A stretch of 64,000 nt of DNA from Hyphomonas neptunium ATCC 15444. Its GTDB lineage: Bacteria > Pseudomonadota > Alphaproteobacteria > Caulobacterales > Hyphomonadaceae. The stretch covers positions 1,736,001-1,800,000 of the forward strand of contig NC_008358.1 in NCBI RefSeq assembly GCF_000013025.1. Direction: 5' to 3'. Below, piece after piece: positions 9,237 through 37,388 of this stretch. Numbering within the stretch: position 1 is the stretch's first letter; each line of letters begins with the position of its first letter. The notes beneath the pieces were generated by a model. It saw nothing but the letters and a program-made list of their open reading frames with translations, made no database searches and had not been told where the DNA came from. Made by a program: the position numbers and the translations under genes.

Positions 9237-10112
9237 TCAGCCATCGCCTAGGAACGGCCGGACGAGCTGACCTGTATAGGTTGAGGGATAGTCCGCTGCG
9301 TTTTCGATCCCAAGGTCGCCCGAGAAAAAGGGGCGATCCGCATCGAAGTGGGCCGTTCCGAGCAGCCTGTCCCAGAATGTCGTGAAGAGACCAAAGTTGA
9401 CGTTGCCCTCAGCCGAAGATTTGAGGTGATGAAACCGGTGGACGGGCGCAAGTGCGAGCACATGGCGAAGCGCGCCGATCTTCATGTCGGTGTTCGAGTG
9501 CTGGAGGAGCAGCTGGACCGCCACCGCGAATGCAAGCAGTACGGCGACGTCCAGCGGCATGCCAGCGAGAATGAGCGGCGCTGTCCCTGCCATCAGTTCG
9601 ATCGCCTGATGGACGGGATGTTTCATGAGGCCGTTGAAGCCGTACATTCGCGTAACGCTGTGATGCACCGCATGGAAGCGCCAGAGGAACTTGTTGTGAT
9701 GGCTTGCCCAGTGAATGACGGTGATACCGGCGTCGGCGACAAGTATTGCAAGCAGCAGCTGAGCCCATAGCGGCCAGCTGCCGGGCCAGATCGGAGGGAA
9801 GGGTACGATGGCAGCCATGATCGGGATGAGGAGCACCGACACGGCAATCGAACCTTCATTGACGAGCGCGTGAAGTCCATCTCTCAAAGTATCGCCCTTT
9901 GGGTGGTTCCAGTCCTCATGGTACGGAATAAACCGCTCAGCAAGAAATGACATCGCGATTGCCGCGAGCAACAGCCCCGCAAGACTAGCTTTGGGCGCAC
10001 CTGAATGCACGAGTGCGATTGCGGCGCCATTGAAGGTCAGCAGCATCAGCGGCGCATAGGTCCACTTGGTGATTTGCTTTAAAGTGGGCATGGGGATTCC
10101 GTTTGACTGCAC
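9237..10112 (-). CDS. Fatty acid hydroxylase / sterol desaturase family membrane protein
   Basis: Membrane di-iron enzyme of the fatty-acid-hydroxylase superfamily. Three histidine boxes are visible: HWASHH, HAVHHS and HRFHHL, with four or so hydrophobic segments between residues 15 and 215. Length is 291 residues from GTG 10112 or 284 from ATG 10091; the ATG form (MPTLKQITKW) looks more natural. The substrate cannot be read from sequence: sterol, carotenoid, fatty-acid or alkylglycerol hydroxylation are all possible. It follows the AraC gene on the same strand after a 63-base gap and may be the last gene of the copper operon. A membrane-lipid change under metal stress would be speculation. 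Confidence 0.82.
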   Translation of the reverse strand: MQSNGIPMPTLKQITKWTYAPLMLLTFNGAAIALVHSGAPKASLAGLLLAAIAMSFLAERFIPYHEDWNHPKGDTLRDGLHALVNEGSIAVSVLLIPIMAAIVPFPPIWPGSWPLWAQLLLAILVADAGITVIHWASHHNKFLWRFHAVHHSVTRMYGFNGLMKHPVHQAIELMAGTAPLILAGMPLDVAVLLAFAVAVQLLLQHSNTDMKIGALRHVLALAPVHRFHHLKSSAEGNVNFGLFTTFWDRLLGTAHFDADRPFFSGDLGIENAADYPSTYTGQLVRPFLGDG

Positions 10113-10175
10113 GCAGGCGAGTGTCGCCTCATCTGATCACAGGGTAACGGGCGCGGCTCAGCCGTCTTGAACGAT

Positions 10176-10913
10176 TCAACAACCTTGCCGCGTCGGGGCA
10201 ATCCGGACTTCCAGGCCAGAAAGACCTGCGCCGGGCGAAACACCGAACCAGCGGCGCATGCGGCGCGTGAAATGGGATTGATCGGAAAAGCCGCCGGCCT
10301 CAGCCGCTTGAGCCAGACTTGCGTTGCCTGAAAGTGCGCGCGCTGCGCGCTGCAACTGCCGCCACTGAAGAACGTGGGAGATGGGCGCCCCGAATGTTGC
10401 ATGTGACATCTGGCGCAGGCGACTGGGCGACACTCCAAGGTCGTGAGCAATCGAGCCTGGCGTGGCGGAGTCCGGGGCGCCATCAAGCAGCTGTGTCAGC
10501 GATCTCTCTGGCTGTGCGGATTGTTCTCCAATCGTGAAGACACCCATCAGGCTAGCCGGCGAGCCGGTTTCGTTGAACTCATCCAATGCGGCTGACAGGC
10601 GCGAACCTGCAAGGCTGAAGCCGCGTTCCTGACCCGAACCCGCTGGGGCGGCGCTTGCGCGGTCAAAGTAGATGCTCCGCAACCTTGTCTCGATTGGACC
10701 GATGGCGTGTGCACATCCCGACGGTATGATCACGTACTGCCGAGACGGGATGATCTGGAGCCTGCCGAAGCACTCGACTTCAAGCGGCCCATCGATCCCC
10801 GCAGTCAGCTGGTGAGCGAGATGGGTATGGGGCGCGTTGGCGCCCGCCACGCCTTCCAGTATCGCCCAACCGTCTCCGATGGTGAGCGAGCCACGCCAGC
10901 GCTCTGCCTGCAT
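10176..10913 (-). CDS. AraC-family transcriptional regulator
   Basis: 245 residues. The N-terminal cupin-like effector region (THLAHQLTAGI, PSRQYVIIPSGCAHAI) is followed by two C-terminal helix-turn-helix units, SIAHDLGVSPSRLRQM and SLAQAAEAGGFSDQSHFTRR, then MRRWFGVSPG, as usual for AraC. The start is ATG 10913, which overlaps the stop of the preceding gene by one base (TGATG); a TTG codon lies just before it. It is co-transcribed with the copper operon upstream and the hydroxylase-family gene downstream. The latter is the simplest candidate target, but no operator could be identified. Confidence 0.85.
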   Translation of the reverse strand: MQAERWRGSLTIGDGWAILEGVAGANAPHTHLAHQLTAGIDGPLEVECFGRLQIIPSRQYVIIPSGCAHAIGPIETRLRSIYFDRASAAPAGSGQERGFSLAGSRLSAALDEFNETGSPASLMGVFTIGEQSAQPERSLTQLLDGAPDSATPGSIAHDLGVSPSRLRQMSHATFGAPISHVLQWRQLQRAARALSGNASLAQAAEAGGFSDQSHFTRRMRRWFGVSPGAGLSGLEVRIAPTRQGC

Positions 10914-11392
10914 CAATGACTGTCACCTTCGGATATCTTGGCCGAAGACCAGTGTATGTGGACAATCTTCCAGTCTCCGTCCGTCTGTTTGAGGACCATC
11001 GTCTCCATCAGACGACTGTTGACGTCCTTGCCGCGGAACGTGCCGGTGGACACAGCTTCGGTCATGACTGTTGCAAGGCCTTCGCCTTCAAAAACGTGGC
11101 GGCTGAGGACCTTTGTCTCAACCGCTTTTGAGAACTCGATATCTGCGCCCATATGATGGGAGCGGTATTCTTCGAGAGAGCGCTCGATTCCGCCGCTCTC
11201 GGCGATCTGAATGTCTGGGGCCATCAAAGCGGACAGGGCGGCTGTATCGCCCGCATCAAGCGCCGCAGCAAAGGCATCGACGATCCCGGCAGGTGACCCT
11301 GGTGCTTCCGGGTGGGCGCTTTCATGGGCAGAGGCAGGGCCCGCAACACCCAGGAGAGCTGCGGTAAAGATGGCGATGATGTAGGTTTTCAT
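10913..11392 (-). CDS. Secreted NTF2/SnoaL-like (DUF4440-type) protein
   Basis: 159 residues from ATG 11392, with a Sec signal peptide (MKTYIIAIFTAALLGVAGPA, cleavage near SAHE). The mature part is a single NTF2-like fold domain: GIVDAFAAALDAGDTAALSA, LMAPDIQIAESGGIERSLEE and a C-terminal DWKIVHIHWSS strand. Such proteins are common at the end of cop operons in proteobacteria, but their role is not established. It follows copD after 10 bases and is coupled to the AraC gene. The exposed HxHW residues could hold a metal; this is inference. Confidence 0.8.
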   Translation of the reverse strand: MKTYIIAIFTAALLGVAGPASAHESAHPEAPGSPAGIVDAFAAALDAGDTAALSALMAPDIQIAESGGIERSLEEYRSHHMGADIEFSKAVETKVLSRHVFEGEGLATVMTEAVSTGTFRGKDVNSRLMETMVLKQTDGDWKIVHIHWSSAKISEGDSH

Positions 11393-11402
11393 TCGGGTTT
11401 CC

Positions 11403-12233
11403 TTATTCAACTGGGCCAGAAATTGTTGTCGCGGCGGCAATGATACCGAGAATCAGCACAAAGAGCACCGCATCCACCCGGAGCGTCGCCCGGAGGTTCG
11501 CCCGCCCGCTGACGGCATCAGTGGCGAGCTGGTGTGTGACACGGGTCATGTTGAGGGCGCCAAGTCCGAGGATCAGTAGTGCGGCCAGAAACTTAGTAGC
11601 AAGGAGCCGTCCGTATCCGGAGTTGAGCGCCGATGTCAGGTCGCCATTGATCCGCCAGAAAAGGTAGACGCCGGATACAAACAGCAGCGGCACGATGAAC
11701 CGGGCGACACGGCTGAACGATTCCGCGCGGGCAAGAACATCTCGGTCAGTCAGCGCAGGGGCAGGCCAGAGCGTAACGGGCGCCGCCAGCCAGAAGCCGG
11801 CGATCAGGACATGGACCGCAACGACCCAGGGGGCGAGCCCCGGCGCCTCAAGACCTGCCGTATGCCCCGTGAGGCCAAAGCCTGCGCTGATGCTGACAGC
11901 TGCGAGCATCGGAAGGATACGACCTTTCGCTATGCTTGCCGCAAAGAGGAGGACAGCGCCCGCGAACAAGGCCAGCGCAGGCCTTCCGCCGCCGGCCCAG
12001 GTCCACCCGAACTGATCAAGCGACAGCGCCGCGCCGAGGCTGCCGCCCATCTGTGCGTTGAGAATGAGCAGCCGGATCAGCGTGGTGGCAGCCACCAGGG
12101 CGGCGAGCCATGTGTAGGCGCGACGGTTGGTGTGCAGTCCGAGCGCCCCGTGAAGCGCCGCCCCGATCGCTGCGAGGCTGGCGCCATACAGCAGGATCTT
12201 GGTTGCAAGATTGGCGGCGTCCAGCAGGGGCAT
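11403..12233 (-). CDS. copD: CopD-family copper resistance membrane protein
   Basis: 276-residue inner-membrane protein with about eight hydrophobic segments, starting at ATG 12233 (MPLLDAANLATKILLYGASL). The open frame extends 203 codons further upstream, but that part lies on top of copC and is not used. GHTAGLEAPGLAPW and VHVLIAGFWLAAPVTLWP resemble the conserved CopD/PcoD core. CopD is thought to bring copper across the inner membrane together with CopC. The gene begins 11 bases after copC ends. Confidence 0.9.
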   Translation of the reverse strand: MPLLDAANLATKILLYGASLAAIGAALHGALGLHTNRRAYTWLAALVAATTLIRLLILNAQMGGSLGAALSLDQFGWTWAGGGRPALALFAGAVLLFAASIAKGRILPMLAAVSISAGFGLTGHTAGLEAPGLAPWVVAVHVLIAGFWLAAPVTLWPAPALTDRDVLARAESFSRVARFIVPLLFVSGVYLFWRINGDLTSALNSGYGRLLATKFLAALLILGLGALNMTRVTHQLATDAVSGRANLRATLRVDAVLFVLILGIIAAATTISGPVE

Positions 12234-12244
12234 ATGGGTCCGGC

Positions 12245-12598
12245 CTATTTCAGTTCGAAAGTCGATTTGCCGGTCATCGGATGACCATCCTTCGACATCG
12301 TACGCCATTCGACGGTGTAGAGACCTGGCGCGAGTTCCGGCAGCGGCACCGTGAATGTGGCTGCCGGTGCTTTTGGCGGCGTGAATCCGAGATCGACCTT
12401 TTCTCCGGCCTGTGTCTGGATAGAGAATGATATCAGACCGACCGGCTGGCTGAAGCTGAACGAGAAGTCTGCAGGAGCGGAGTCGATGACGGCCGCATTC
12501 TCGATGCTCGTCGATTTGACACTGATGTGGGCAAGCGCGGGAGCAGCTGAGAGAGCGAGCGCCAGAAGTGTTGCGGCGATTAATTTGGGCGTGTGCAT
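12245..12598 (-). CDS. copC: CopC-family periplasmic copper-binding protein
   Basis: 117 residues from ATG 12598, preceded by a good AAAGGACA ribosome site. Signal peptide ends ALA|HISV, which leaves His1 as the mature N-terminus, the residue that binds Cu(II) in CopC proteins. The conserved C-terminal pattern YTVEWRTMSKDGHPMTGKST supplies the second histidine site. The middle is a cupredoxin-like beta-barrel. The Met-rich Cu(I) loop of PcoC is not evident, so this is the Cu(II)-only type. It lies upstream of and close to copD. Confidence 0.93.
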   Translation of the reverse strand: MHTPKLIAATLLALALSAAPALAHISVKSTSIENAAVIDSAPADFSFSFSQPVGLISFSIQTQAGEKVDLGFTPPKAPAATFTVPLPELAPGLYTVEWRTMSKDGHPMTGKSTFELK

Positions 12599-12639
12599 GA
12601 GATGTCCTTTCCGGACCGAGAGTTTCAATTAGATACGCT

Positions 12640-13437
12640 TCAGAACCAGAGCCTGATGCCGGTGACGAAGGAGAGGGTTTCTGTGTCTCCTCCACGGGCC
12701 CGGACAAAGCCGGCGGTCTCGCCGGTCGAGGCTTGCCAATTGACCCCGACATAGGGCGCGAACTGACGATCGAACTCATAGCGAAGGCGCAGGCCAAGTT
12801 CCGCTGTCGATAGTCCGGCGCCGGTTTCAAGTTCGGGCACATCTTCAGCCGCGAAGTTCAGTTCCGTGCGCGGTTGAAGCACGAGACGCTGGGTCAGCAG
12901 GAATTCATACTCGGCTTCGAAGCGGGCAGAGAGATCACCTTCTTCACTAAGGAACACTGCGCCGTCGACTTCGAACCAATAAGGGGCGAGACCCTGGATT
13001 CCGGCTACCGCGTAAGTGCGGGAAGGGCCCGGCTCGAAATCATGACGCACACCTGCCTGCAGGTCGAAGTACCGCGCGACGGGCCGGGACCAAAGTGCCT
13101 GCAGTTCGGTTTCTTCAAAACTGCCAGCATCCAGATCATAGTCGATCTCGGATTTTATCCAGAGCCGGTTCTCGTCCGTACCCCACCACCCCTGACCCTC
13201 CAGAAGAAGAGCGGGAGAGCCCTCGCCTGATTGGTATTCGAACCGGTCGGCGAGGATCATGTAATTTGTCCCTCCGCCATGTTCTTTTTTCAGGGCATCC
13301 TGAGACGCCTTGAATTCATTCTTATCCCAATAGGCTTCGGCCTGCGATCCAGGTACGGGCGTCTCCTGAGCAAAGGCAGGCGCTGCTGCGAGCGGTGAAA
13401 GCAGGATAATCGTCGCAATCATCTGAGCGCGGGTCAT
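12640..13437 (-). CDS. copB: CopB-family outer-membrane copper resistance protein
   Basis: 265 residues with a signal peptide (ending PAFAQ) and an outer-membrane beta-barrel that closes with a C-terminal aromatic (RLWF). Recognisable CopB patterns are MILADRFEYQ, EGQGWWGTDENRLWIKSEID, WSRPVARYFDLQAGVRHDFE and YVGVNW. Unlike PcoB it lacks the long N-terminal Met/His-rich repeat; that function seems to have moved to the Met-rich segments in CopA and the CusF-like protein. The start codon overlaps the copA stop by one base (TAATG). Confidence 0.93.
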   Translation of the reverse strand: MTRAQMIATIILLSPLAAAPAFAQETPVPGSQAEAYWDKNEFKASQDALKKEHGGGTNYMILADRFEYQSGEGSPALLLEGQGWWGTDENRLWIKSEIDYDLDAGSFEETELQALWSRPVARYFDLQAGVRHDFEPGPSRTYAVAGIQGLAPYWFEVDGAVFLSEEGDLSARFEAEYEFLLTQRLVLQPRTELNFAAEDVPELETGAGLSTAELGLRLRYEFDRQFAPYVGVNWQASTGETAGFVRARGGDTETLSFVTGIRLWF

Positions 13438-15290
13438 TAACGGTGTCCTTCGTGGCTCATGCCCGTCATTGGGGCTTCTTTTGGCGGAGGCTCGTCCGTC
13501 GGCAGAGTAGACGAAGTCATGTGATCCCTGTGCGGAGCATCCATGCCAGCCGCCGCACTTCGTGGGAGGACGGAGACGACCTGCATCATGCCAGCATGCA
13601 TATGGAAGAGCAGGTGGCAGTGAAACGCCCAGTCTCCGACATGGTCCGCTGTCACGTCAAAGGACAGGCGCTCGGCAGGTTTGACGGTGACCGTGTGCTT
13701 GCGCGGCTTGTGATCGGTGTCCCCGACAACGAGATCGAAGAACATGCCATGCAGATGGATCGGGTGCGTCATCATCGTATCGTTAACGAGCGTCACGCGC
13801 AGGCGTTCGCCTTCATGGAAGATGATCGGACCGGTAACCTCGCTGAGCTTCACGCCGTCGAAGGACCACATGTAGCGTTCCATGTTGCCGGTGAGGTGGA
13901 TCTCTATCTCGCGGCCCGGCGCCCGTGTGTCGGGGTTGGGTGTGAGACTCCTCAGCTGTGAATACCGGAGCGCCCGGTGCGGGACTGATTCGAGGCCCAG
14001 CCCCGGCTCATCGATCCGGCTTACCTGAACCATGGCGACGTTATCCACACCGGCGCCCATCCGGTGTTCATGACCCTGCGGGACTGACACAGCCATGTCC
14101 ATCGCGCCGTGATCCATGCCGGGCATGGCGCTATGGTCCATGCCGGCCATTGAGCCGTGATCCATGGATGCCATGTCCATGCCCATGTCGCGGTGGGTCA
14201 GAACGGGCGGCTCGCGCAGGAGAGGCGCGGTGGCAACCAGGCCCGCCTCGGGCGCCAGAGTGGCGACCACCTGACCGGACCGGTCGATCGATTCCGCGAC
14301 CAGCGCAAACGGCCGCGCTCGGGTCGGACTGACAATCACGTCATAGGTCTCCGCCACCCCGATCTGGAACTCGTCGGTCTCCACCGGTTGGACATTGAGC
14401 CCGTCAGCGGCAACCACCGTCATCGGCAGTCCCGGAATCCGGAAATTGAAGATCGTCATCGCCGAGGCGTTGATGATCCGTAGCCGGATGCGTTCACCGG
14501 AATTGAAGATTGCAGTCCAGTTGTCTCGCGTCGCATGACCATTGATCAGGTAGGTATAGACCGAGGCCGTGACATCCGAGATATCGGTCGGCGACATGCG
14601 CATGGCGCCCCAGGAAGTCCGGTCGGCAAGCGCTGTGCCGAGACCGTCTTCACGGGCGTCCTTCAGGAAGTCACCAACCGTGCGCTGCTGGAAGTTATAA
14701 ACGGCCGCATCTTTCTTCAGGCGGGCAAACACCTTGTGCGGATGCTCGAACGTCCAGTCGGACAAAACAAGCACATACTCACGGTCTGCTTCGACGGGAT
14801 CGGCGCCGGCAGGATCGATGATCAGCGGGCCGTAATGGCCCAGCTGTTCCTGAAGTCCGGAATGGGAGTGATACCAGTAGGTGCCGCTCTGCGGGACCGC
14901 GAACTCATAGGTGAAGGTCGACTTCGGCTTGATGCCGGGGAACGAAACACCGGGCACACCGTCCATATGGAAGGGCACCAGAAGCCCGTGCCAGTGGATC
15001 GATGTGTCTTCGTCGAGGGTATTGTTGACCTTGAGGGTCACCTTCTCGCCCTCGCGGAACCGGATAAGCGGCCCGGGCAGTGTTCCGTTGATCGTGATGG
15101 CATGGCCGGAGCGGCCTGCTATCTTTACGGCGCTGTGGCCGATGGTCAGGTCAAACGCGTTACCGCGTGTTTCGAAGATGCCTGTGTTGCCAGCATTGGC
15201 GCTTCGCGCCCAGGCGGGCAGGAGGGACGTGGAGGCGGCGAGCACGCCGCCAGCGGCGGCCGTGCGGAGGAGACTGCGTCGTGTGAACAT
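13437..15290 (-). CDS. copA: CopA/PcoA-type periplasmic multicopper oxidase
   Basis: 617 residues from ATG 15290. It begins with a Tat signal (MFTRRSLLRTAAAGGVLAAS), as needed for export of a folded copper enzyme. The copper ligands are in IHWHG, WYHSHS, HPIHLHG and HCHLLFHMHAGM, covering the type 1 and trinuclear sites. A Met/His-rich loop around residues 375-410 repeats MDHGSMAGMDHSAMPGMDHG and should bind Cu(I). CopA oxidises Cu(I) to the less toxic Cu(II) in the periplasm. The frame is open for 106 more codons upstream, but these are antisense-like Arg-rich residues overlapping the preceding gene. Confidence 0.96.
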   Translation of the reverse strand: MFTRRSLLRTAAAGGVLAASTSLLPAWARSANAGNTGIFETRGNAFDLTIGHSAVKIAGRSGHAITINGTLPGPLIRFREGEKVTLKVNNTLDEDTSIHWHGLLVPFHMDGVPGVSFPGIKPKSTFTYEFAVPQSGTYWYHSHSGLQEQLGHYGPLIIDPAGADPVEADREYVLVLSDWTFEHPHKVFARLKKDAAVYNFQQRTVGDFLKDAREDGLGTALADRTSWGAMRMSPTDISDVTASVYTYLINGHATRDNWTAIFNSGERIRLRIINASAMTIFNFRIPGLPMTVVAADGLNVQPVETDEFQIGVAETYDVIVSPTRARPFALVAESIDRSGQVVATLAPEAGLVATAPLLREPPVLTHRDMGMDMASMDHGSMAGMDHSAMPGMDHGAMDMAVSVPQGHEHRMGAGVDNVAMVQVSRIDEPGLGLESVPHRALRYSQLRSLTPNPDTRAPGREIEIHLTGNMERYMWSFDGVKLSEVTGPIIFHEGERLRVTLVNDTMMTHPIHLHGMFFDLVVGDTDHKPRKHTVTVKPAERLSFDVTADHVGDWAFHCHLLFHMHAGMMQVVSVLPRSAAAGMDAPHRDHMTSSTLPTDEPPPKEAPMTGMSHEGHR

Positions 15291-15358: not shown

Positions 15359-15937
15359 TTAGTGCTGTGAATGGTCGGCGGCTGGCTTGGCGGCATCCGT
15401 CGCGGCGGGCGCAGCTTCTGGCGCCATGCCCGGCATCTGCGAGTGGTCCATGCCTTTCATGTTGCCGTGATCCATGCCGGGCATTGTGCCGTGATCCATT
15501 CCCTCCATCGCGCATGGCTTGCCGCTGGCTTCGGCGGCCGACATGGCCGTCTCGTGCATCTTGCCCATGCAGGCGTCGTGCAGGCCCTCCGGGGCATCGA
15601 GCGAACACATCGCTTCGATCCGGTAGGATTTTGACTTTGCATCTTCCGCTAGGAGGAAGTGAACCCGGTCGCCGGCCGCAAACGCCGCAAGGTCAACGCC
15701 TTTCGCGGCCTTGAAGTCCATCGTCATGGCGTCCCAGTCCAGCGCGGCGATGGGGCCGTGGTCGATCGTGGCTTTCGAGGTTTTGACATCGAGGGCGGTC
15801 ACTGTCCCTTCGCCCACTGGAAGGCCGCAATGATCCGTGTGCTGCATCGATGCGGCTGAACTGCCGGCTTCCAGAGCAAATGCGGGGGCGGCAGAAAGTA
15901 CCATCGCAAGCGCGAGGATTGAATGAAAGAGTTTCAT
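15359..15937 (-). CDS. CusF-like periplasmic copper-binding protein with Met/His-rich tail
   Basis: 192 residues with a signal peptide ending APAFA. Residues ~40-110 form a CusF-type OB-fold: GTVTALDVKTSKATIDHGPI, DWDAMTMDFKAAKGVD, GDRVHFLL, YRIEAM. The Trp and Met of the fold's WDAMTM segment match the Cu(I)-binding tryptophan/methionine face of CusF. The C-terminal third repeats MDHGTMPGMDHGNMKGMDHS and ends DHSQH, a strong copper-binding tail. It precedes the multicopper oxidase and probably delivers or buffers periplasmic copper. Confidence 0.88.
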   Translation of the reverse strand: MKLFHSILALAMVLSAAPAFALEAGSSAASMQHTDHCGLPVGEGTVTALDVKTSKATIDHGPIAALDWDAMTMDFKAAKGVDLAAFAAGDRVHFLLAEDAKSKSYRIEAMCSLDAPEGLHDACMGKMHETAMSAAEASGKPCAMEGMDHGTMPGMDHGNMKGMDHSQMPGMAPEAAPAATDAAKPAADHSQH

Positions 15938-28486: not shown

Positions 28487-29446
28487 TCAACCTCTCCGCC
28501 AGCGGGACCTGGGCTCCGCGCTTGCTTTTGATATGCGCACGACCGTCTGAGGCTTTGTCCCGTGCCGCAGCTCGGCGGCGGTGAACAGGCGGTCGACGAT
28601 GTAGTAGGTCCCCCGGACCCGGTAGTTGACGAGTTCGGCCGTGCCCCCGGATGACAGCACAAAGAGGGGCGGCATTTCGGAGGCAGCTACGCCCGCTGGC
28701 ATCTGGATGAAGACCTGGCGGCCGTCATCGAACACGCGGACGGGTGTCCAGTCCGGGCTGTCGCCGGTGATGCGGTAATCGAAGGAGAGGGTCTCGAGGC
28801 TCAGGCCGCGTTCGACGGGAACGGCTTCCTGTGCTGCGGCGTTCGCATTGCGGGCGGTGAGGCCGGCGAGTTCATCCTGCGGATAGCGCCAGGAAAGGGC
28901 GGCCATGTAGGTGGCAGGCGTCGATTCCAGGTCGAGGTGATAGGTCCGCCGGTCGGTGGCGATCATCAGGTTTGTCTGAAGGCCCGCGGCGACGGGCTTG
29001 ACCAGGATATGCGCCCGGGCCGCGCTGCCAGAACCCGACGCCGTGTCCCCGACAATCCAGCGGACGGTGTCGCCCGCCGACACCGAGACCAGCGTCTCCC
29101 CGGGCTGGAGCGCAATATCCGTGACCTGGCCGGGGCTCGCATAGAGACGGTAGAGCGCCCCTTCCGTATAAGGATAGACCTGGACGGCATTGAGGAACCC
29201 CTCCGGGGAGGGTTCGATCACCGCGCCGGCGCGGCCTGCCTCAATGGCCCCTTCGGGGCTCAGGGCGGGCTTTTTTGCAGGCTCAGGATCAAGGGATTTT
29301 AGCTGGCCAGGCAGCGGCAGCGGGATCGCTGTTTCCACGATTTCGACGCGCTCGGGTTTCGGGTCTTCTGTGGGGCGGGCCTCCACGAACCGGGCAGGAT
29401 CGAACAGGGGCTCGGGCGGGGGCGGTGTACCGAACTGGTCGACCAC
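28487..29446 (-). CDS. trbG: TrbG, VirB9-like conjugal transfer protein, probably shortened at the N-terminus
   Basis: 319 residues from GTG 29446. VirB9-type patterns are seen in YPYTEGALYRLYASPGQVTD, LQPGETLVSVSAGDTVRWIV and PRVFDDGRQVFIQMP-like VRVFDDGRQVFIQMPAG. A secretion signal is expected but absent. The frame continues upstream without a start into the nuclease gene on the other strand, only 39 bases away, so the 5' end seems cut off by insertion of the nuclease-helicase cassette. Without a signal peptide the product is probably not functional. Confidence 0.85.
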   Translation of the reverse strand: MVDQFGTPPPPEPLFDPARFVEARPTEDPKPERVEIVETAIPLPLPGQLKSLDPEPAKKPALSPEGAIEAGRAGAVIEPSPEGFLNAVQVYPYTEGALYRLYASPGQVTDIALQPGETLVSVSAGDTVRWIVGDTASGSGSAARAHILVKPVAAGLQTNLMIATDRRTYHLDLESTPATYMAALSWRYPQDELAGLTARNANAAAQEAVPVERGLSLETLSFDYRITGDSPDWTPVRVFDDGRQVFIQMPAGVAASEMPPLFVLSSGGTAELVNYRVRGTYYIVDRLFTAAELRHGTKPQTVVRISKASAEPRSRWRRG

Positions 29447-29485
29447 GGCGCTCGATGTGAAGCTGAAACACAGCCGCTGGTTTCT

Positions 29486-30685
29486 ATGAGCGGCGTGATC
29501 GAAAGCCCGCTCGCCGCGATTCTGGCGGAAACGCGGCGGCAGCTGGGTCAGGACTATGCATGGCCGGATCCTTCAAGCGGGTTAGCGTATCTTCTGCTAA
29601 AACGTCATCAAAAGTCCTTGAAAGGTGTTATGGCGTCAACGCCGCCATCGGTTGATGCGCAGTTATTGCGCCGATCGCCAGTGCTTGCGGCATATGGATA
29701 CCTTGCTGATCAGTTGAGCGATGGCGACCAAAGCAGTTGGATGGAAGCCGTAGAGCATCTGCGCGGGCGAGATCCGTACCCGGCCAATCGCGATTCCTTC
29801 GTGCACAATCCAATCGAAGTGCTAGGCCTTGCTCATGGATTGACGATCCTCAGAGACGATCAGGCAGGGCATCGCTCTTGGCTGTCTTCGGTTTTGAGAC
29901 GGGGGTTGAACAAGAATGAACTTGAGACCGCGTCTACGCGCTGCGCCGCCAATCTGGCCATCGCGCAGCTAGAGGGCGCACCAGCTGAACCGAATGCCAC
30001 CCCGGATTATCAAACGCTCCCCATGCCGGATCTCATTTTGCTCTCAGCATTGGCGTTGGCTTTTCCTTCAGAGGGTGTACTGGAGATTCACGACATTGAG
30101 GCCGCCCTGCAAACCAAGCTTCTGCGTGAAGCGATCTCAATCAGCGATGTGGCTTCGGCAGCTGCACTCAGCGTGTTTGCTGAACGGCTGATTGATCGGT
30201 TTTCCCTTGGCCCTCAATCCTCCACGACCCTTGAAAAAGTCGAGGCACTATGTCGGCGCTTTCCTCTGCTCTCCCATGCGCTGCAAAGACGTTATGCCGG
30301 TCGCCCTAGTTTTGAGATCAATGATGAATATGATGTACAAGATCTTTTTGGCGCGATCCTCCATCTTCATTTTGATGATGTTCGCTCGGAAGAGGTAACG
30401 CCCTCATATGCGGGGAATAGCTCCCGGGTTGATTTCTACTTACCTGAGGCGCGGATGATTGTTGAGGTCAAAATGACCCGAAAAAGTCTGGGTCAAAAAG
30501 AGGTCGTAAACCAGCTTATAGAGGACGCCGCCCGGTACGCTGCTATGGACCATGTTGATACACTAGTATGTTTGGTCTTTGACCCTCATAGATACTGTAA
30601 GAACCCAGCCGCGATCGAGGCGGATGTAGCAGAAAGCGGACGGCGCCTGCGCGTGGTACCAATCGTTTGTCCCAAAGGCCTATGA
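29486..30685 (+). CDS. PD-(D/E)XK nuclease-domain protein, DpnII/MboI-like
   Basis: 399 residues. The C-terminal third is a nuclease of the DpnII/MboI-like group: INDEYDVQDLFGAILHLHFD, EEVTPSYAGNSSRVDFYLPE and IVEVKMTRKSLGQKE. The catalytic set is Asp316, Glu327 and Lys329, and all are present. The N-terminal ~270 residues are helical and unfamiliar. Such domains are found as stand-alone effectors in defence loci rather than in restriction-modification pairs; no methylase is nearby. It is the first of four coupled genes, and its stop overlaps the next start (ATGA). The base composition is lower in G+C than the flanking trb genes, which suggests separate transfer. Confidence 0.8.
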   Translation: MSGVIESPLAAILAETRRQLGQDYAWPDPSSGLAYLLLKRHQKSLKGVMASTPPSVDAQLLRRSPVLAAYGYLADQLSDGDQSSWMEAVEHLRGRDPYPANRDSFVHNPIEVLGLAHGLTILRDDQAGHRSWLSSVLRRGLNKNELETASTRCAANLAIAQLEGAPAEPNATPDYQTLPMPDLILLSALALAFPSEGVLEIHDIEAALQTKLLREAISISDVASAAALSVFAERLIDRFSLGPQSSTTLEKVEALCRRFPLLSHALQRRYAGRPSFEINDEYDVQDLFGAILHLHFDDVRSEEVTPSYAGNSSRVDFYLPEARMIVEVKMTRKSLGQKEVVNQLIEDAARYAAMDHVDTLVCLVFDPHRYCKNPAAIEADVAESGRRLRVVPIVCPKGL

Positions 30686-31047
30686 AAACGCCCTCCACTC
30701 TGCGGACCCTATTTCAGAAGGGAGAGCCTTTTCTCATGCATCCGCGAGACCTCAACCGCATTGGGCAAGCTGATCATGCGGCCCTCGAGCGACGCATCGG
30801 CGAAAAGCTGATCTTGGTCACGGCCAATGCAATCGGATTCAGAAAGCCGGTCGAGTGCGGCTATATTGATCCCAGTCTGATCATTATCCCAGGCCTCGCC
30901 GCTGCCGATAGCGAAACATTTATTCAGGCATCGATCGATCTCCCGGAAGCTCAAGGTGATCCCATGGATGTCATGGTCAACCATGTGCTTGAAATGGGCG
31001 TCGATCGTCCGCCGGGGCTCTATCCGCTGCCGGGTGAGGCGCGATAG
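30682..31047 (+). CDS. Unknown 121-residue protein in the nuclease-helicase cassette
   Basis: Starts at ATG 30682, overlapping the nuclease stop. I recognise no domain. It has no signal peptide or membrane segment. The central part IGEKLILVTANAIGFRKPVE and PSLIIIPGLAAADSETFIQA suggests a small alpha/beta fold, and the C-terminus is Pro-rich (GVDRPPGLYPLPGE). The gene is fixed between two nuclease genes with a 2-base gap on its right, so it is likely a partner or immunity/regulatory subunit. This is inference from position only. Confidence 0.65.
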   Translation: MKTPSTLRTLFQKGEPFLMHPRDLNRIGQADHAALERRIGEKLILVTANAIGFRKPVECGYIDPSLIIIPGLAAADSETFIQASIDLPEAQGDPMDVMVNHVLEMGVDRPPGLYPLPGEAR

Positions 31048-31049
31048 CC

Positions 31050-31850
31050 ATGCCAATGTCCTTCACTCCGATTTCCCATGAACAGCGGTGGACCGGATCA
31101 ACGTGGTCCGTTGATGATGAAGACACGTTAGCTGAGCTCATCGCTCGCATAGCGCTCGGTCAAGCGCAGACGGTTCAGTCAATCCTGCATGAGCTTGGCA
31201 ACAAGCCTGTATCGCCCACTGCCGGGTTTGAAGGCGCCAAGGCGACGCTGACGGCGGCCACCGAGGACGAGATCTTCCATCGAGACGGCTGGGTCTTTCA
31301 AGTCATGGCCTGGATTGCCGCGCATCAGCAGGACGATACGGCGCTTATCCATGCGCCGCATATTCGGCTTGCTGACAAAGGGACGGATGGTTTGATCATC
31401 GAATTCCAAGATCGCGGTATCGCTCGTGTGGTGATCTGCGAAGAAAAGGCCACGGAGCACCCCCGCGACCGAGTGCGTGACAGCGTTTGGCCTGAATTCA
31501 AAACCTTTGAGTCGGGCCGCCGCGACAATGAGTTGATCGCGGCGGTGAGCGACATGCTTTCCAAGAATGGCGTTGGGGACGCCGATGCGACCGTGGCGAG
31601 CATCTTTTGGAATAAGCAGCGGGCTTATCGCATCTCTACAATCGTAGGCGCGACGCATGCGACAGAGGCTGGCCGCAAGCGTCTGTTCAAAGACTATGAA
31701 AAGACGGTTCTTGGGGACTTGACGCGGCGTCGAGCAGAAACGCTTCATTTAGCCGATATCAGACCGTGGCTCGCCGAGCTTTCAAACAAAGCGATTGGAT
31801 GGATAGAAGACGCAGAAGCGGTGCACGATTTGGAGGCAAAAGATGTATGA
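31050..31850 (+). CDS. Second PD-(D/E)XK-like protein, HamA/DUF1837-like candidate
   Basis: 266 residues. A putative nuclease core runs HIRLADKGTDGLIIEF, VVICEEKATEHPRDRVRDSV, giving Asp113, Glu131 and Lys133 as a D-X17-ExK site. Adjacent Arg/Lys-rich helices follow. It lies directly before a Ski2-like helicase and overlaps it by 8 bases. A small PD-(D/E)XK protein before a helicase is the layout of the Hachiman (HamA-HamB) and AbpAB defence systems. I could not confirm membership in DUF1837 by eye, so the family name is tentative. A different defence type is possible. Confidence 0.65.
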   Translation: MPMSFTPISHEQRWTGSTWSVDDEDTLAELIARIALGQAQTVQSILHELGNKPVSPTAGFEGAKATLTAATEDEIFHRDGWVFQVMAWIAAHQQDDTALIHAPHIRLADKGTDGLIIEFQDRGIARVVICEEKATEHPRDRVRDSVWPEFKTFESGRRDNELIAAVSDMLSKNGVGDADATVASIFWNKQRAYRISTIVGATHATEAGRKRLFKDYEKTVLGDLTRRRAETLHLADIRPWLAELSNKAIGWIEDAEAVHDLEAKDV

Positions 31851-33844
31851 CCCTCAAACCGCAGCGCTTATTCGTCAGACACCAGAGCTACCAGGATTAG
31901 ACCGCGAAGATTTGCCAGATGTGCTTTCAAGAGCGTATGCGGAGATCGCGTCAGCGCGGGTGATGCTTCGTGACGGGCAGCCAAGTTTAGAACAGCTCTC
32001 AGAGACCATTGGTTTTGCTCAGAGGCTTGCGCGCACGAATGAGGCGCTGATTCTGGCTTCGCCAGACCGCGATGACAAAGCGGCGGCTGCTTTTGTGGCG
32101 GCAACGGCCTACCAGCTGGTGCGCCAAGCCGAAGCCATTCGTAAGGATACGGCCGGAGCGGCTTACCTGCGCGGAGATGCGATCAGTCCCGAGATCTCGG
32201 CCATGCTCTTGTTTCTAGCCGCTGAGGCGTCGGCGGACGCGGCAGAAGTGTCACGTCATATCAACTTCCCAGAAGACGAACCGCTCCAAGCCAATTTGAT
32301 CTGGACCTTGATCCGTCTGGCCCGAGGTCAAGTCGGCGCAATAACCGACAGTCGCAGCCTGGGACGTCGGCGAGTTGTCGTGGGTACTGACTATCAGCAA
32401 GCTGTCGCTGCGTTGTACTATCAATTGCTTCGCGGCGTGAGAGCCCTAGCCTTTCGTCTCCAAGGGCGTCGCATCACCGATATGGCTGATCCCATCGCCG
32501 TATTCGAAAGGGTGAAAAGCCTAGCATCACCGACGGCCACGGATGCCTTAGGCGATCTGAACGCGCAGGCCCTCGTCGCTTTCTCAGGTCCGTTTCATTT
32601 GGCGAGCCTGCTCATCATTCTTGGGCGCTCATTATTGGACGGTGCGGTCGTCAATTTGCCGGCACCGGATGCGACCGATCCTGCTAGATGGCGCAAAGCG
32701 ATGCAGGGCGTTGCGGCAAACCGACGCGAACAAGCGCGCGATCGATGCGATGCTTTGTATCTTGATGATCGCGCGGATCGCCCCGAGTGCCGACTTTCTC
32801 CTGCTTTCGGCCATGATGAAAAACACCGAGGAGCTTGCTGGATGGATTGAGGAGCTAACAGGCCGACCATCACTCTCGTTCGACGATAGCTGGAAGCCAA
32901 CCCGTCAGATACGAGGGTGTGTTGTTTATGATTTGGCCCAGTTGAGAGCGCTCCAGAAAACCCTCACCACCGCCAAAACCACAGCAACAAGTGGCGTTCC
33001 TAAACGCCTCAAAGATCAAATTTCGGCCCCAGTGTTTGGTTTTTTCAGTGTGCAGCAGACTTGGGCGACTACCGAGCGAGAGCGCTACGTTCTTTTGCCT
33101 TTTCACCGCGATCCTCTGCCGCTGGCGACAAACAAGTTTTGGAAACTGACCCCAAATGCCGGAGAGGTCGCATCGGCTCTCGCGGCTGACGCGGCGCGCG
33201 CCCACATTCGAACTTTGGTCTTTGCCACAACCATTCCCAATGCCTCATCCATCGCGAATAGAGCAGCGGAAGCACTAGGCCCATGTAGCGTCGATCTGAA
33301 TGAAGCTGAACAACGTTTGCTAGATACGATAATCGACGAAGTCGGGCATGTTCGGCACCTCTATCTTCCGCTCAAAGACGGAAAACTCATTGGTCGCGCA
33401 GCGTGCCATCATGGGCAATTGTTGCCGGAGGAGCGCCAATTAGTCGAACGTCTTTATCGACGAAACGGCGCGATTTCTGTGCTTGCAGCCACGTCAACCT
33501 TGGCGCAGGGGATGAATCTACCGGCGGAATTGGTTATCCTTTCAAGCGACAGCGAGTTTCAGCCGGATACTGGCAAGCAAAGCATTCTGAAAGCAGAAGA
33601 TCTCTTAAACGCCGCCGGCCGTGCCGGACGGGCTGGAGAGAACGCGACCGGGATGGTCTTGATCATTCCGAGCAAAGTGACAGGCATTGATGATCAAGAA
33701 AACCTGATCGGCACGCAGTGGAGAAAGCTTCAAGAGATTTTTTCGCAAGCGGATCAATGCCTCATCATCGACGATCCATTGATGGCGGTGATGGACCGCA
33801 TCCATATCGAGACGGATGCTGTGTCTCGCGCACCAAACCCCTGA
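31843..33844 (+). pseudogene. Ski2-like DExH helicase gene with internal deletion and cut 3' end
   Basis: The N-terminal ~290 residues (frame from ATG 31843) are an alpha-helical region ending RWRKAMQGVAANR. From about 32720 homology continues in another frame: RAIDAMLCIL, PSADFLLLSAMMKNTEELAG (motif III), VLAATSTLAQGMNLPAELVI (motif V) and LNAAGRAGRAGENATGMVLI (motif VI). The segment between, which must carry Walker A (motif I) and the DEAH box (motif II), is gone. The 3' end is also broken: after IHIETDAV the sequence becomes a traG fragment. The helicase cannot hydrolyse ATP in this form. Its four-gene operon was probably once a defence system. Confidence 0.85.
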
Positions 33845-34126
33845 TGCGGCTTGTTCTCAACCAGATTGCGCGCCGGCTGACCGAGCAGGAGCCCGATCCC
33901 TCGCGGCGGAAGCTGCTCCTGATGCTGGACGAGTTCCCGGCCCTGGGGCGGATCGATTTCTTCGAGACGGCGCTCGCGTTCATGGCGGGGTATGGGGTCC
34001 GGGCGTTCCTGGTTGCCCAGTCGCTGAACCAGATCGAGAAGGCGTATGGTCCCAACAATGCTATTCTGGACAATTGCCATGTGCGCGTGGCCTTTGCGAC
34101 CAATGATGAGCGCACGGCCAAGCGGA
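33822..34126 (+). pseudogene. traG: traG (VirD4-like coupling protein) internal fragment
   Basis: About 100 codons of TraG are recognisable: SRTKPLMRLVLNQIARRLTE, KLLLMLDEFPALGRIDFFET (Walker B), GVRAFLVAQSLNQIEKAYGP and NCHVRVAFATNDERTAKRI. Both ends are missing. The left end abuts the helicase at about 33820 and the right end meets a merR fragment at about 34127. It is on the strand opposite to trbG/trbI, so the conjugation module was rearranged as well as deleted. Confidence 0.88.
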
Positions 34127-34410
34127 TTCACGATTTGAAGATTGTCCTGTGCGATTGTTCGCGCATCCTCGCACGTGCTCGCGGGCCTGCTGGAGAGGTC
34201 AAGAAGTGCGCGGATCTGGTCGAGACCGAAACCAAGCTGCCTGGCGTTCTGAATAAATGCGAGCCGGGAGATCTCGGTCTCGCCGTAAACGCGTCGCCCG
34301 TTTGGAGCCCGCTGCGGAGCTGGCAGCAGACCGATCTCCTCATAAAAACGTATGGTGGGAATCTTGAGTTTCGTGCGGCGCGCCACCTCGCCGATAGGGA
34401 GATGCAACAT
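34127..34410 (-). pseudogene. Truncated MerR-family metal regulator
   Basis: From ATG 34410 about 94 residues match the DNA-binding half of CadR/ZntR/PbrR-type regulators: PIGEVARRTKLKIPTIRFYE, EIGLLPAPQR, GRRVYGETEISRLAFIQNAR and LGFGLDQIRALLDLS. The conserved Cys at position ~79 (ASTCEDARTIA) is present. The dimerisation helix and the C-terminal metal-binding loop are lost where the traG fragment begins. The frame stays open through antisense traG to 33754, so a 218-residue hybrid could be made. DNA binding might persist, metal response should not. Confidence 0.85.
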
Positions 34411-34415
34411 TGAGC

Positions 34416-34446
34416 TTGATCCTCTAGTTACTTGAGGATGTACCAG
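34416..34446 (+). promoter_or_regulatory. MerR-type promoter/operator of the CDF gene
   Basis: TTGATC (34416-34421) and a -10-like TACCAG (34441-34446) are separated by 19 bases, the lengthened spacer that MerR activators correct. A dyad ATCCTC-N9-GAGGAT (34419-34439) lies in the spacer. A GGAGG ribosome site precedes the CDF start at 34472. The operator is intact although its merR is truncated. Confidence 0.75.
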
Positions 34447-34471
34447 TAAAACTGAACTGGAGGAATACACC

Positions 34472-35098
34472 ATGAGCGGATGCGAAGATGGATGCGGAGC
34501 GAAGGCAGTCGAAGCGGCGACCACGCCCGCTTATGTGCGCACGTTATGGCTCGTCGTCTTCCTGAATGCGGGCATGTTCCTGATCGGTTTGATTATCACT
34601 GTTACCGGCGGGTCGGTGTCCGTCCGTGCGGATTTGCTGGATTTTCTAGGCGATGCGCTCGCAACCGGCATTGGCCTGCTGCTGGTGGGCCGTTCACGCC
34701 GCGTGCGCTCGCTGGCCAGCCTTTGGCAAGGGTTTGCCCTCGGTGCATTGGGACTGTTCGTGCTGGGCACTGCGTTGTCCCGAATGGCGGGCGGCGTTGC
34801 GCCTGAACCATTCGGAATGAGCGTCTACGGGGTGCTCGGGCTTTGCGTAAACATCGGTGCCGCCTTGTTGCTGCTGAAGCACCGCAATGGCGACGCAAGC
34901 GTGCGCGCCGTCTGGTTGTATAGCCGCAATGACGCGATCGGTAACTTGATTGTCTTGGCTGCTGCGGCACTCGTGGTTGTTTCGGGGTCGTATTGGCCCG
35001 ACCTTATCGCGGGCGCAGCCATTGCATTCCTTTTCCTGCACTCGTCGCTGCAGATCATCCGGGATTCGCGCCGTGAACTCCGTGAGGTGGTGGAATGA
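34472..35098 (+). CDS. Cation diffusion facilitator-family transporter
   Basis: 208 residues with about six membrane helices and a Cys-containing N-terminus (MSGCEDGCG). The CDF metal-site pattern is SVRADLLDFLGDALATGIGL in helix 2 and WLYSRNDAIGNLIVLAAAAL in helix 5, that is DxxxD and NDxxxN in place of the canonical HxxxD. This form occurs in compact CDF proteins linked to merR and lspA. It lacks the usual C-terminal cytosolic domain. Export of lead, zinc or cadmium is likely, the metal unproven. It is coupled to lspA by a 4-base overlap. Confidence 0.85.
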   Translation: MSGCEDGCGAKAVEAATTPAYVRTLWLVVFLNAGMFLIGLIITVTGGSVSVRADLLDFLGDALATGIGLLLVGRSRRVRSLASLWQGFALGALGLFVLGTALSRMAGGVAPEPFGMSVYGVLGLCVNIGAALLLLKHRNGDASVRAVWLYSRNDAIGNLIVLAAAALVVVSGSYWPDLIAGAAIAFLFLHSSLQIIRDSRRELREVVE

Positions 35099-35922: not shown

Positions 35923-37140
35923 TCATGGAGCTGCAAATCTCATCACTTCTGCCGCCCACCATTCCGCCATGCGGACGCGTTCGTCCCAGTAGGTTGCTCG
36001 GTGATAGGCCTTGCGCACATGATTGTCGCCGACATGGGCGAGCTCGGCTTCGATGGCGTCAGGGTGCCATTTCCCACTCTCATTGAGGAGGCTTGAAGCG
36101 CTGGCCCGGAACCCGTGGCACGTATGGACGTCTGCTTGGATATCGAGCCGGCGCAGCGCGTAGTTCATGGTGTTCTCGCTGAGGGGCCGTCCGTCCGACA
36201 TCTGAGACGGAAGGACGAGCGAACCTTTGCCTGTGAACCGCTTCAGATCCTTCAGGATCTCAATGGCGGGTCCGGGCAGGGGCTTTGTGTGCAGTTTGCG
36301 CGTTTTGGTCCGGTCGGCCGGGATGGTCCACATCCGCTCTTCAAAGTCGAACTCGCTCCAGTGGGACAGGCGTAGTTCGCCAGGACGGGGATAGAGCAGC
36401 GCCAGCAGCTTCAAGGCAGCCTGGGCTTCGATCGTGCCCTCATACGACCAGACGGTCCTGATCAGCTTCGCAAACCCCTTGCGGTCGGTCACGGCGGCCC
36501 TGTGCTGGACCTTGGGCGCGATAAGCGCCCCCTTCAGCGCCACGGTCGGGTCACCGTCCGCCCGGGTCGTTGCGATCGCGTAGCGGAAGATCTGACCGAT
36601 CAGGGCACGAAGCCGGCGTGCTGATTCGTAGTTTCCCTCTTTCTCGACCCTTCGAAGGGTCGCGAGGATTTCGGGTGCCTTGATATCCCGAATGGGCTTC
36701 GGGCCAAGGTCTTCGCATGCAAGGCGCGCGAGCCAGCGTTTCTTCTTGAGCGTGGCCGGGGCGAGTCCCTCGATCTCCTCCTTCTGGAGCAGCTCATCAG
36801 CGATCCGGGCGAAGGTATCTTCGATTTCAGCGCGCCGCGCTTCCTGGTCAGCCTTTTTGGTAGCCGAAGGGTCAACGCCTTCGAAAAGCATCGTCCGAGC
36901 TTCTAGGCGCCGCTCTCTGGCCCGCCCAAGGGAGATCTCGGGGTAGGGGCCGAACGACAAGGTCTTCTGCTTGCCCTCAAAGCGGTAAGCCATCTTCCAG
37001 AGCTTTGACCCCCCAGTTGTTACCTCCAGATAGAGGCCGTAGCCGTCACTATAGCGCTTCGTGCGGCTGTCCGGTTTGAGGCCGCGGATTCGTGTGTCTG
37101 TCAGGGGCATTTTGTTGGCATCGTCAAAAAGTGTTGGCAT
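35923..37140 (-). CDS. int: P4-type tyrosine integrase of the tRNA-Phe element
   Basis: 405 residues from ATG 37140 or 395 from ATG 37110 (MPLTDTRIRGLKP), where the N-terminal DUF4102 domain begins. The active-site residues are visible: Arg in LLYPRPGELRLSHW, HxxR in CHGFRASASSLL, and the nucleophile Tyr in HRATYWDERVRMAEWW, with the box II His of HVG just before. P4-type integrases insert into tRNA 3' ends, and the gene starts 174 bases from the 3' end of tRNA-Phe. It therefore defines the right boundary of the integrated element. Confidence 0.95.
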   Translation of the reverse strand: MPTLFDDANKMPLTDTRIRGLKPDSRTKRYSDGYGLYLEVTTGGSKLWKMAYRFEGKQKTLSFGPYPEISLGRARERRLEARTMLFEGVDPSATKKADQEARRAEIEDTFARIADELLQKEEIEGLAPATLKKKRWLARLACEDLGPKPIRDIKAPEILATLRRVEKEGNYESARRLRALIGQIFRYAIATTRADGDPTVALKGALIAPKVQHRAAVTDRKGFAKLIRTVWSYEGTIEAQAALKLLALLYPRPGELRLSHWSEFDFEERMWTIPADRTKTRKLHTKPLPGPAIEILKDLKRFTGKGSLVLPSQMSDGRPLSENTMNYALRRLDIQADVHTCHGFRASASSLLNESGKWHPDAIEAELAHVGDNHVRKAYHRATYWDERVRMAEWWAAEVMRFAAP

Positions 37141-37313: not shown

Positions 37314-37388
37314 TGGTGCCCGGGGGCGGAATCGAACCACCGACACGCGGATTTTCAATCCGCTGCTCTACCCCTGAGCTACCCGGGC
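37314..37388 (-). tRNA. tRNA-Phe (GAA), element attachment site
   Basis: 75 bases with CCA encoded. The acceptor GCCCGGG pairs with CCCGGGC before ACCA. The anticodon stem GCGGA/TCCGC holds the loop TTGAAAA with anticodon GAA, and GGTTCGATTCC is the T arm. The 3' end faces the integrase, as in tRNA-targeted elements. I found no second copy of the tRNA 3' end to the left in the window, so the other boundary is either outside it or has been lost. Confidence 0.95.

Follow-up and report, generated by a model that had tools for sequence, protein, structure and literature searches.

BPAN systems place a full-length long-B Argonaute (pAgo) in an operon with a bAgaN-type PD-(D/E)XK nuclease. For EcBPAN, guide-RNA-directed activation and DNA degradation are described in PMC10620215. 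Hachiman (HamAB) is a two-gene system, in which a small nuclease gene of the HamA family (DUF1837, PF08878) precedes a gene for a Ski2-like helicase, HamB. In E. coli the two proteins form a HamA-HamB complex, and DNA degradation is triggered by DNA damage, as stated in PMC12278908. Further points of comparison are AbpAB of E. coli K-12, the PADLOC phage defence candidate PDC-M23 and the toxin-antitoxin-like DUF433-DUF5615 pair.

The window analysed here is a stretch of 64,000 nucleotides from Hyphomonas neptunium ATCC 15444, to which all positions refer. The locus within it, four consecutive genes (g1 to g4), is best read, with a probability of about 0.7, as the degenerate remains of a composite defence island carried by a conjugative element, made up of a BPAN-type pair, a DUF5615 relic and a Hachiman-like g3-g4 pair.

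Organization of the locus

The four plus-strand frames are closely spaced, as in the sequence-only reading of the window: g1 and g2 overlap by 4 bases, 2 bases separate g2 from g3, and the g3 stop and the g4 start overlap by 8 bases (Table 1). The mobile-element setting that it described also holds. Remnants of TrbI, TrbG and TraG surround the locus, and an integrase adjoins a tRNA-Phe, which is likely the integration target of the element; a search for a second copy of the tRNA-Phe 3' end found none. In the traG fragment, the T4SS-DNA_transf match spans the first ~95 residues and the right end was set by eye. The lower G+C claimed for the cassette stands on the left side, where it is 0.67-0.70 at 27-29 kb and falls to 0.53-0.58 over 30-34 kb. 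On the other side, the flank at 34-36 kb has a G+C of 0.57-0.59 and therefore the cassette is not lower than its right flank.

Table 1. Features of the locus and of the surrounding element, in window positions.
Feature	Positions	Strand	Basis
trbG (CagX) of the conjugative element	28487..29446	-	Pfam CagX, E 1.7e-70
Tail of long-B pAgo gene (last ~20 codons and stop)	29424..29489	+	Identical to the end of L024 frame 106-1575
g1, bAgaN-type PD-(D/E)XK nuclease, predicted; 399 aa, open frame	29486..30685	+	PF18742, E 6.6e-43
g2, relic of DUF5615 PIN-like toxin; 121 aa from ATG	30682..31047	+	Sequence comparison with plasmid DUF5615 proteins
g3, PD-(D/E)XK nuclease of the Hachiman-like pair; 266 aa, open frame	31050..31850	+	Alignment A2; AF2 model
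g4, 5' part (N-terminal helical region)	31843..32719	+	Residues 1-292 of the 1102-aa L024 helicase
g4, second part, shifted frame, ending at residue 790/1102	32717..33823	+	100% to L024 5192-6298; Helicase_C domain
traG fragment (coupling protein), after the helicase remnant	33824..34131	+	Pfam T4SS-DNA_transf, E 2.6e-21
Tyrosine integrase of the element	35923..37140	-	Pfam Phage_integrase, Phage_int_M, Arm-DNA-bind_3
tRNA-Phe	37314..37388	-	ARAGORN

A near-identical copy and the breaks in the window

Another Hyphomonas genome (G349) carries a copy of the locus, L024, that aligns with the window at 99.94% over 3,296 bases and at 100% over 1,107 bases. The g1, g2 and g3 proteins are identical in the two copies. 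Directly upstream of g1, L024 contains the C-terminal part of an RsAgo-like protein: its frame 106-1575 encodes the C-terminal 489 residues and matches RsAgo residues 272-758 (E 7e-197). This Argonaute starts at the contig edge and is itself incomplete, therefore a whole Argonaute 5' of this g1 is not seen. In the window, the alignment to L024 places a junction near 29424, where the pAgo gene is cut and the 5' end of trbG is missing; the cassette is incomplete on its 5' side. The pAgo tail that remains overlaps the g1 start by 4 bases.

The helicase of L024 is a single frame of 1102 aa. Compared with it, the window has lost 389 bases, corresponding to residues 293-422 and including ATPase motifs I and II, and the frame is therefore shifted. 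Similarity between the two copies stops at residue 790 of 1102, where the traG fragment starts. The description of gene 4 as a helicase gene is thus correct for the sequence from 31843 onwards, and fails for an intact gene, given the deletion, the frame shift and the missing C-terminal end. Neither sensor is intact in the window, since the Argonaute is reduced to its tail, and the helicase lacks the ATP-binding motifs as well as the C-terminal end. With both sensors broken, and in spite of the two open nuclease frames, no working system is expected in the window.

The Argonaute-associated nuclease

The residues D316, E327 and K329 noticed earlier in the DpnII-MboI domain of g1 are present. The protein matches the PADLOC model Aga_Helical-REase (E 3.1e-60) and, over residues 268-355, EcbAgaN (23wq; E 1e-5). 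Matches to g1 occur in 16 of 398 genomes of the order searched, and a full-length pAgo adjoins the g1 relative in 7 of these 16. The pAgo_II model has no match in 7 of the 16, which match the nuclease domain only, nor in the window's own genome (G000). From these sequence comparisons, g1 is a bAgaN-type nuclease partner of a long-B Argonaute and is explained by the named BPAN systems. A role as the extra nuclease of a Hachiman or AbpAB system is rejected, since g1 tracks with pAgo.

The toxin relic

The 121-residue protein had been regarded as unknown. It shares 33-42% identity with plasmid DUF5615 proteins, nine of the plasmid records being annotated as DUF5615, and among 13 loci inspected that contain its relatives, 12 have a DUF433 gene directly upstream. 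No DUF433 partner is found beside g2 in the window or in L024. The acidic residues conserved in the PIN-like fold, which we take to be catalytic, are replaced in g2: the initial FIDE is substituted, and VTEN..DF has become VTAN..GF in the window. By its sequence, g2 is a dead DUF5615 PIN-toxin relic. The degenerate state of this DUF5615 protein led to its rejection as a new partner in a defence system.

The nuclease-helicase pair

The residues D113, E131 and K133 pointed out earlier in g3 are indeed present, and the triad is invariant in 39 of 39 sequences of alignment A2. The AF2 model of g3 (pLDDT 94.5) has as its best PDB match the Hachiman-class protein AbpA (8zue_A) with a TM of 0.47, the matched half of AbpA being unspecified, followed by EcoO109I; HamA (8vx9_A) is absent from the 50 best structural matches listed. 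Sequence searches gave little. Neither Pfam nor the PADLOC HamA models match any of 19 sequences (g3 and 18 aligned relatives), the PDC-M23 models have no match in the same set at E 0.1, and one g3 relative matches PADLOC PDC-S39 (E 0.011). PF08878 (DUF1837) gives no match in G000, a genome that contains g3. Comparison by hhalign is not significant with PF08878 members (E 0.014 with a probability of 3%; E 0.72) or with AbpA (E 0.14). A PDB profile search with g3 returned a single match, a dipeptidase (E 0.19), and the phage collection contains no g3 match. The family carries no label in Pfam, PADLOC 2023 or NCBIfam, the latter searched with the window protein.

The helicase shows a clearer relationship. 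When the model of the intact 1102-aa protein is compared with PDB, HamB takes ranks 1-3, above Hel308 (E 1.1e-25 to 4.1e-23, TM 0.59-0.61), in alignments of 1171-1254 columns over the 1102-residue model. Similarity of the helicase core is common to Hel308, Pol theta and PDC-M23B. Residues 1-292 are helical almost throughout and form an N-terminal bundle, the sequence of which has no significant hhalign match to five HamB sequences (best E 0.016). Among the PADLOC models, PDC-M23B is first (E 2.7e-36, residues 307-756) and HamB1 slightly behind (4.5e-33). The same helicase core is present in AbpB (hhalign, E 2.9e-11). The defence nature of the cassette and its resemblance to Hachiman or AbpAB, both suggested earlier, consequently stand for genes 3 and 4 at the level of folds (HamB for the helicase, AbpA for the nuclease), and a HamA sequence match is lacking.

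One scan of one genome collection confirmed 156 g3-g4 loci, 80 of which were viewed. A helicase match adjoins the g3 relative in 79 of these 80 listed loci, with the 8-base overlap in 63 of the 79. The loci are mostly from Pseudomonadota, and also from contigs labelled Acidobacteria, Planctomycetota, Corallococcus, Curtobacterium, Prevotella and cyanobacterium. A literature search found no paper on PDC-M23; with Hachiman-like terms it found only Tuck et al., in two versions, and no name for the g3-g4 pair.

Neighbouring ORFs in 40 of the 80 loci were also scanned with PADLOC (122 of 151 ORFs listed, 29 omitted). Defence models matched among them include Drt8 (first member), PtuA and AriA (three members each), and a type III methyltransferase and RmrA (two members each). 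The scan has no control group and no total of matching ORFs, therefore no enrichment of defence genes is claimed.

Interpretation of the locus

The sequence-only reading proposed one unnamed four-gene defence system, to be checked by counting how often homologues of all four genes lie side by side. This count gives the outcome that the reading itself named as refuting the proposal. Among the 398 genomes, g1 has matches in 16, g2 in 9 and g3 in 12, and g1 or g2 occurs together with g3 only in G000 and in G349, at the same locus; a conserved four-gene set was rejected on this ground. In the 80 listed loci, g1, g2 or pAgo lies near the g3 relative once, on the same Hyphomonas contig. As g1 tracks with pAgo, g2 with DUF433 and g3 with the helicase, the four genes are not one system. 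A single functional operon, in which Argonaute and helicase would act as sensors and the two nucleases as effectors, jointly with g2, would account for the 2-8-base overlaps and gaps, including the Argonaute-g1 overlap, that are kept throughout in L024. This is very improbable, with the same pairs found apart elsewhere and g2 deprived of its conserved acidic residues. Least probable is that the g1 and g3 frames are kept in the window for their own use after the loss of the sensors, for instance as effectors of other sensors. The identity of the g1, g2 and g3 proteins to those of G349, despite both sensors being broken, would suit such a use. On the other hand, the two copies have hardly diverged, therefore the open frames may reflect recent decay only, and G000 has no pAgo_II match.

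The descent of the g3-g4 pair requires more discussion. An independent association of a restriction-type nuclease with a Ski2/Hel308-like helicase, sensing something other than DNA damage, agrees with the failure of g3 to match either HamA or AbpA significantly in sequence, with EcoO109I as second structural match and with a helicase core shared by several families. It is unlikely, given that HamB precedes Hel308 in the first three structural ranks, that AbpA is the first match of g3, and that Hachiman has the same gene order and likewise an N-terminal helical bundle. The balance tips slightly towards g3-g4 being a widespread, unnamed Hachiman-class system, in which the helicase has the HamB fold and the position of HamA is taken by a nuclease missed by current HamA models; Hachiman-like immunity would then be undercounted.

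In the decayed composite island, gene content, breaks, conserved partners and folds are read from the comparisons above, and the activities are modelled on studied relatives. By analogy, the catalytically inactive long-B Argonaute of the BPAN-type pair would recognise invader DNA by means of small RNA guides and activate the PD-(D/E)XK DNase g1, leading to DNA degradation and cell death. The Ski2/HamB-like helicase, with its N-terminal helical bundle, may restrain the g3 nuclease and, sensing damaged or phage DNA, activate it.

On this analysis the four-gene system is a false one, and a common nuclease-helicase pair with an unlabelled nuclease comes to light. If the pair works like Hachiman, a large group escapes surveys based on HamA models, and g3 would reveal the parts of HamA required for docking on a HamB-type helicase.

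Comparison with known systems

The locus shares with EcBPAN, and with RsAgo and its neighbour, a nuclease of the bAgaN kind, and the Argonaute-g1 gene order is that given for RsAgo in PMC10620215. It differs in the Argonaute, of which the window keeps only the last ~20 codons. The g2 protein resembles the plasmid DUF5615 proteins of the DUF433-DUF5615 pair, whereas it has neither a DUF433 neighbour nor the conserved acidic residues. PDC-M23 has in common with the pair that PDC-M23B is the top PADLOC model for the helicase; it differs in the nuclease, g3 having no PDC-M23 model match. With AbpAB, the pair shares AbpA as best structural match of g3 and the AbpB helicase core, whereas AbpA has 538 residues and an added N-terminal nuclease domain (PMC12278908) against 266 residues in g3. 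Hachiman differs in its HamA-family nuclease, since g3 is missed by PF08878 and by the PADLOC HamA models. The g3-g4 pair shares with Hachiman the two-gene order of small nuclease and Ski2-like helicase, the D-E(X)K active site as given in PMC12278908, and, by fold, a HamB-type helicase with an N-terminal helical bundle.

Gene organization and the surrounding element

The four plus-strand frames described by the sequence-only reading are present. They are now read as a bAgaN-type nuclease (g1), a DUF5615-related protein (g2), a PD-(D/E)XK nuclease (g3) and a broken Ski2/HamB-like helicase (g4). From g1 to g4, consecutive genes overlap by 4 bases, stand 2 bases apart and overlap by 8 bases, and the active-site residues named for g1 and g3 are found in both proteins. 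The G+C content claimed to be lower than in the flanks is so on the left (0.53-0.58 at 30-34 kb vs. 0.67-0.70 at 27-29 kb) but not on the right, where 34-36 kb has 0.57-0.59.

Features and their coordinates
Sequence	Feature	Coordinates	Strand
Window	Frames resembling metal efflux and resistance genes	697-25391	
Window	Tandem copies, first set	14106-14179	
Window	Tandem copies, second set	15416-15537	
Window	Aligned to L024 at 99.94%	29424-32719	
Window	g1	29486-30685	plus
Window	g2	30682-31047	plus
Window	g3	31050-31850	plus
Window	Helicase sequence (g4)	from 31843	plus
Window	Aligned to L024 at 100%	32717-33823	
Window	MerR-type-looking frame	33754-34524	minus
Window	traG fragment beside the composite island	33824-34131	
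L037	TerB N-terminal, ATP-binding and DEAD/DEAH helicase annotations	7509-14351	
L019	SMEK-domain, small and DUF2326 genes	1341-4240	

The cassette is placed between trbI and trbG on the left (minus strand) and a plus-strand traG fragment, cation-efflux and lspA-like genes, an integrase and tRNA-Phe on the right. The element is rearranged, since trbG and traG have opposite orientations and the window has no further trb gene between them. A second copy of the tRNA-Phe end was not found in the window (up to 3 mismatches) or in the genome (up to 1 mismatch). By eye, the C-terminal side of the MerR-type-looking regulator frame appears to be fused to antisense sequence from the traG fragment, which would make it another rearrangement junction. 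Other frames of the element, two of them profile-tested, resemble copper and heavy-metal efflux and resistance genes (P-type ATPases, multicopper oxidase, CusB/HlyD and outer-membrane efflux proteins). The multicopper-oxidase-like frame contains tandem copies with 24-base spacing, encoding Met/His/Gly/Asp-rich repeats.

A less damaged copy of the locus

Locus L024 (identical with L080) is contig C521 of a second genome, G349 (Hyphomonas sp. 34-62-18). Its helicase is one frame of 1102 residues. The window lacks 389 bases of this frame, corresponding to residues 293-422 with FPTGAGKST and DECH, and is therefore frame-shifted. The similarity ends at residue 790, directly before a stretch matching the middle of TraG; downstream of its helicase, L024 has an HTH-like frame and then the beginning of traG. 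On the 5' side of g1, L024 has a frame of 489 residues sharing 4 bases with g1. Of this frame the window retains the last ~20 codons, which are joined to a trbG that lacks its 5' end. The first 85 bases of the L024 contig occur once in G349 and are absent from the window's own genome (G000); their reverse presumably resembles the start of an IS3-type transposase.

The Argonaute-associated nuclease and g2

The 489-residue protein is the C-terminal portion of an Argonaute of the long-B type: it matches RsAgo residues 272-758 (E 7e-197) and EcAgo (E 6e-67) and covers positions 262-724 of 724 of the PADLOC model pAgo_II. g1 itself matches DpnII-MboI, Aga_Helical-REase and EcbAgaN. Such Argonaute-nuclease pairs were named BPAN/bAgaN by Song et al. 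2023 (PMC10620215). That paper mentions a predicted nuclease encoded downstream of RsAgo and describes, for BPAN sensing an invading plasmid, activation directed by guide RNA together with collateral DNA degradation and cell death; plaquing of T5, T7 and lambda-vir was not lowered.

g1 is matched in 16 of the 398 searched genomes of the order, all of which were searched for pAgo_II. A full-length Argonaute adjoins the g1 relative in seven, judged from neighbouring frames in G006, G299 and G325 and from coordinates in G051, G050, G113 and G079. G006 alone of these matches g1 over nearly the whole length (43%); the other six reach about 25-34%, several in the nuclease domain only. The Argonaute of G349 is truncated, and none was detectable in G000. 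Seven further genomes (G112, G339, G290, G210, G106, G307 and G168), in which pAgo_II was not found, match only the C-terminal nuclease domain (38-43%), so this domain is common to other proteins.

Plasmid relatives of g2 are annotated as DUF5615 PIN-like (9 records); both relatives tested match PF18480 and the single upstream neighbour tested matches DUF433. A DUF433 gene lies directly upstream in 12 of 13 loci, with broken frames in one (L039). These loci represent 6 plasmids and 7 genomes; three more plasmid records, including two near-copies of loci already counted, were left out. The locus without DUF433 is in G086; its match scores 22.7 bits within a longer frame, and it is probably unrelated. 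No DUF433 match was found in the window or L024. Compared with its relatives, g2 has its FIDE start replaced and VTEN..DF changed to VTAN..GF. The most plausible reading of g2 is the relic of a dead toxin gene. On Roseobacter denitrificans pTB1 (L037), the DUF433-DUF5615 pair is followed by the annotations listed in the table, with a SAVED-domain gene just past them, a possible further defence cluster.

The g3-helicase pair

g3 is matched in 12 of the 398 genomes. It shares a genome with g1 or with g2 only in G000 and G349; g1 and g2 are both present in G050 too, but 1.46 Mb apart. A helicase sequence lies beside g3 in 21 of 22 loci (11 plasmid records, 11 genome loci), the exception being L021 with a truncated g3. 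A scan of genome contigs gave 204 candidate stretches, of which 156 were confirmed; in the 80 of these on which the counts rest, a same-strand helicase match adjoins g3 in 79, and the remaining locus (L097) ends at a contig edge. In 75 of the 80, a frame longer than 600 codons begins close to the end of g3, and g1, g2 or Argonaute is matched in L080 only. The 8-base overlap of ATG/GTG with the g3 stop (63/79 loci) suggests translational coupling. Residues D113, E131, K133 and R78-D79-G80 of g3 are invariant in 39 aligned sequences.

Plasmids L017, L018 and L023 carry a split or partial helicase. In such copies the nuclease has often kept its frame, as in the window. Near the pair on a Rhizobium sp. 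ZX09 plasmid (L019) are SMEK-domain, small and DUF2326 genes, which we take to resemble an ABC-three-component defence system.

Of 99 loci searched, 10 contain a traG-like sequence, or 7 after three duplicates are removed. Directly upstream of traG lies the g3-g4 pair in L113 and L115; an Argonaute-nuclease pair facing away from traG lies beside it in L078, and the composite island in L024 and the window. This stretch may be an insertion hotspot for different defence modules, which would account for unrelated modules sitting together in the window.

Proposed mechanism and comparison with known systems

By analogy with BPAN, the Argonaute would activate g1 upon guided recognition of invading DNA. 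By analogy with Hachiman (HamA nuclease, HamB helicase), a g4-type helicase would keep g3 in check until it meets aberrant DNA, whereupon DNA degradation by g3 would be set off. Both nuclease frames of the window are open and both sensing proteins, Argonaute and helicase, are broken; neither system should therefore work there as such.

BPAN and DUF433/DUF5615 are already known. Neither Pfam and PADLOC 2023 (19 sequences) nor NCBIfam (window protein only) labels the g3 nuclease, and no pair recognised as g3-g4 was found in the open-licence PMC papers searched; judged from these sources, the pair may be unnamed so far.

The confident g3 model (pLDDT 94.5) has as top PDB match 8zue_A, titled Hachiman (E 2.7e-3, probability 1.00, TM 0.47), followed by EcoO109I (E 0.019); none of the matches falls below E 0.001, and HamA (8vx9_A) is absent among the best 50 matches listed. 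8zue_A is AbpA of E. coli, proposed as a Hachiman variant by Tuck et al. (PMC12278908). For the intact helicase model (pLDDT 84.4), the top three matches are all HamB (E 1.1e-25 to 4.1e-23, 1171-1254 alignment columns); Hel308 and Pol theta rank lower. The model's residues 1-292 are almost all helical, and the same paper places the HamA-binding NAH bundle of HamB at the corresponding N-terminal position. By sequence, all comparisons run of g3 with HamA or AbpA failed, the N-terminal bundle gave nothing significant against HamB (best E 0.016), and PADLOC ranked PDC-M23B just above HamB for the helicase. Since the folds come closest to HamB and AbpA but these sequence tests and this ranking do not follow, g3-g4 is called Hachiman-like in architecture and fold rather than placed in the HamA family.
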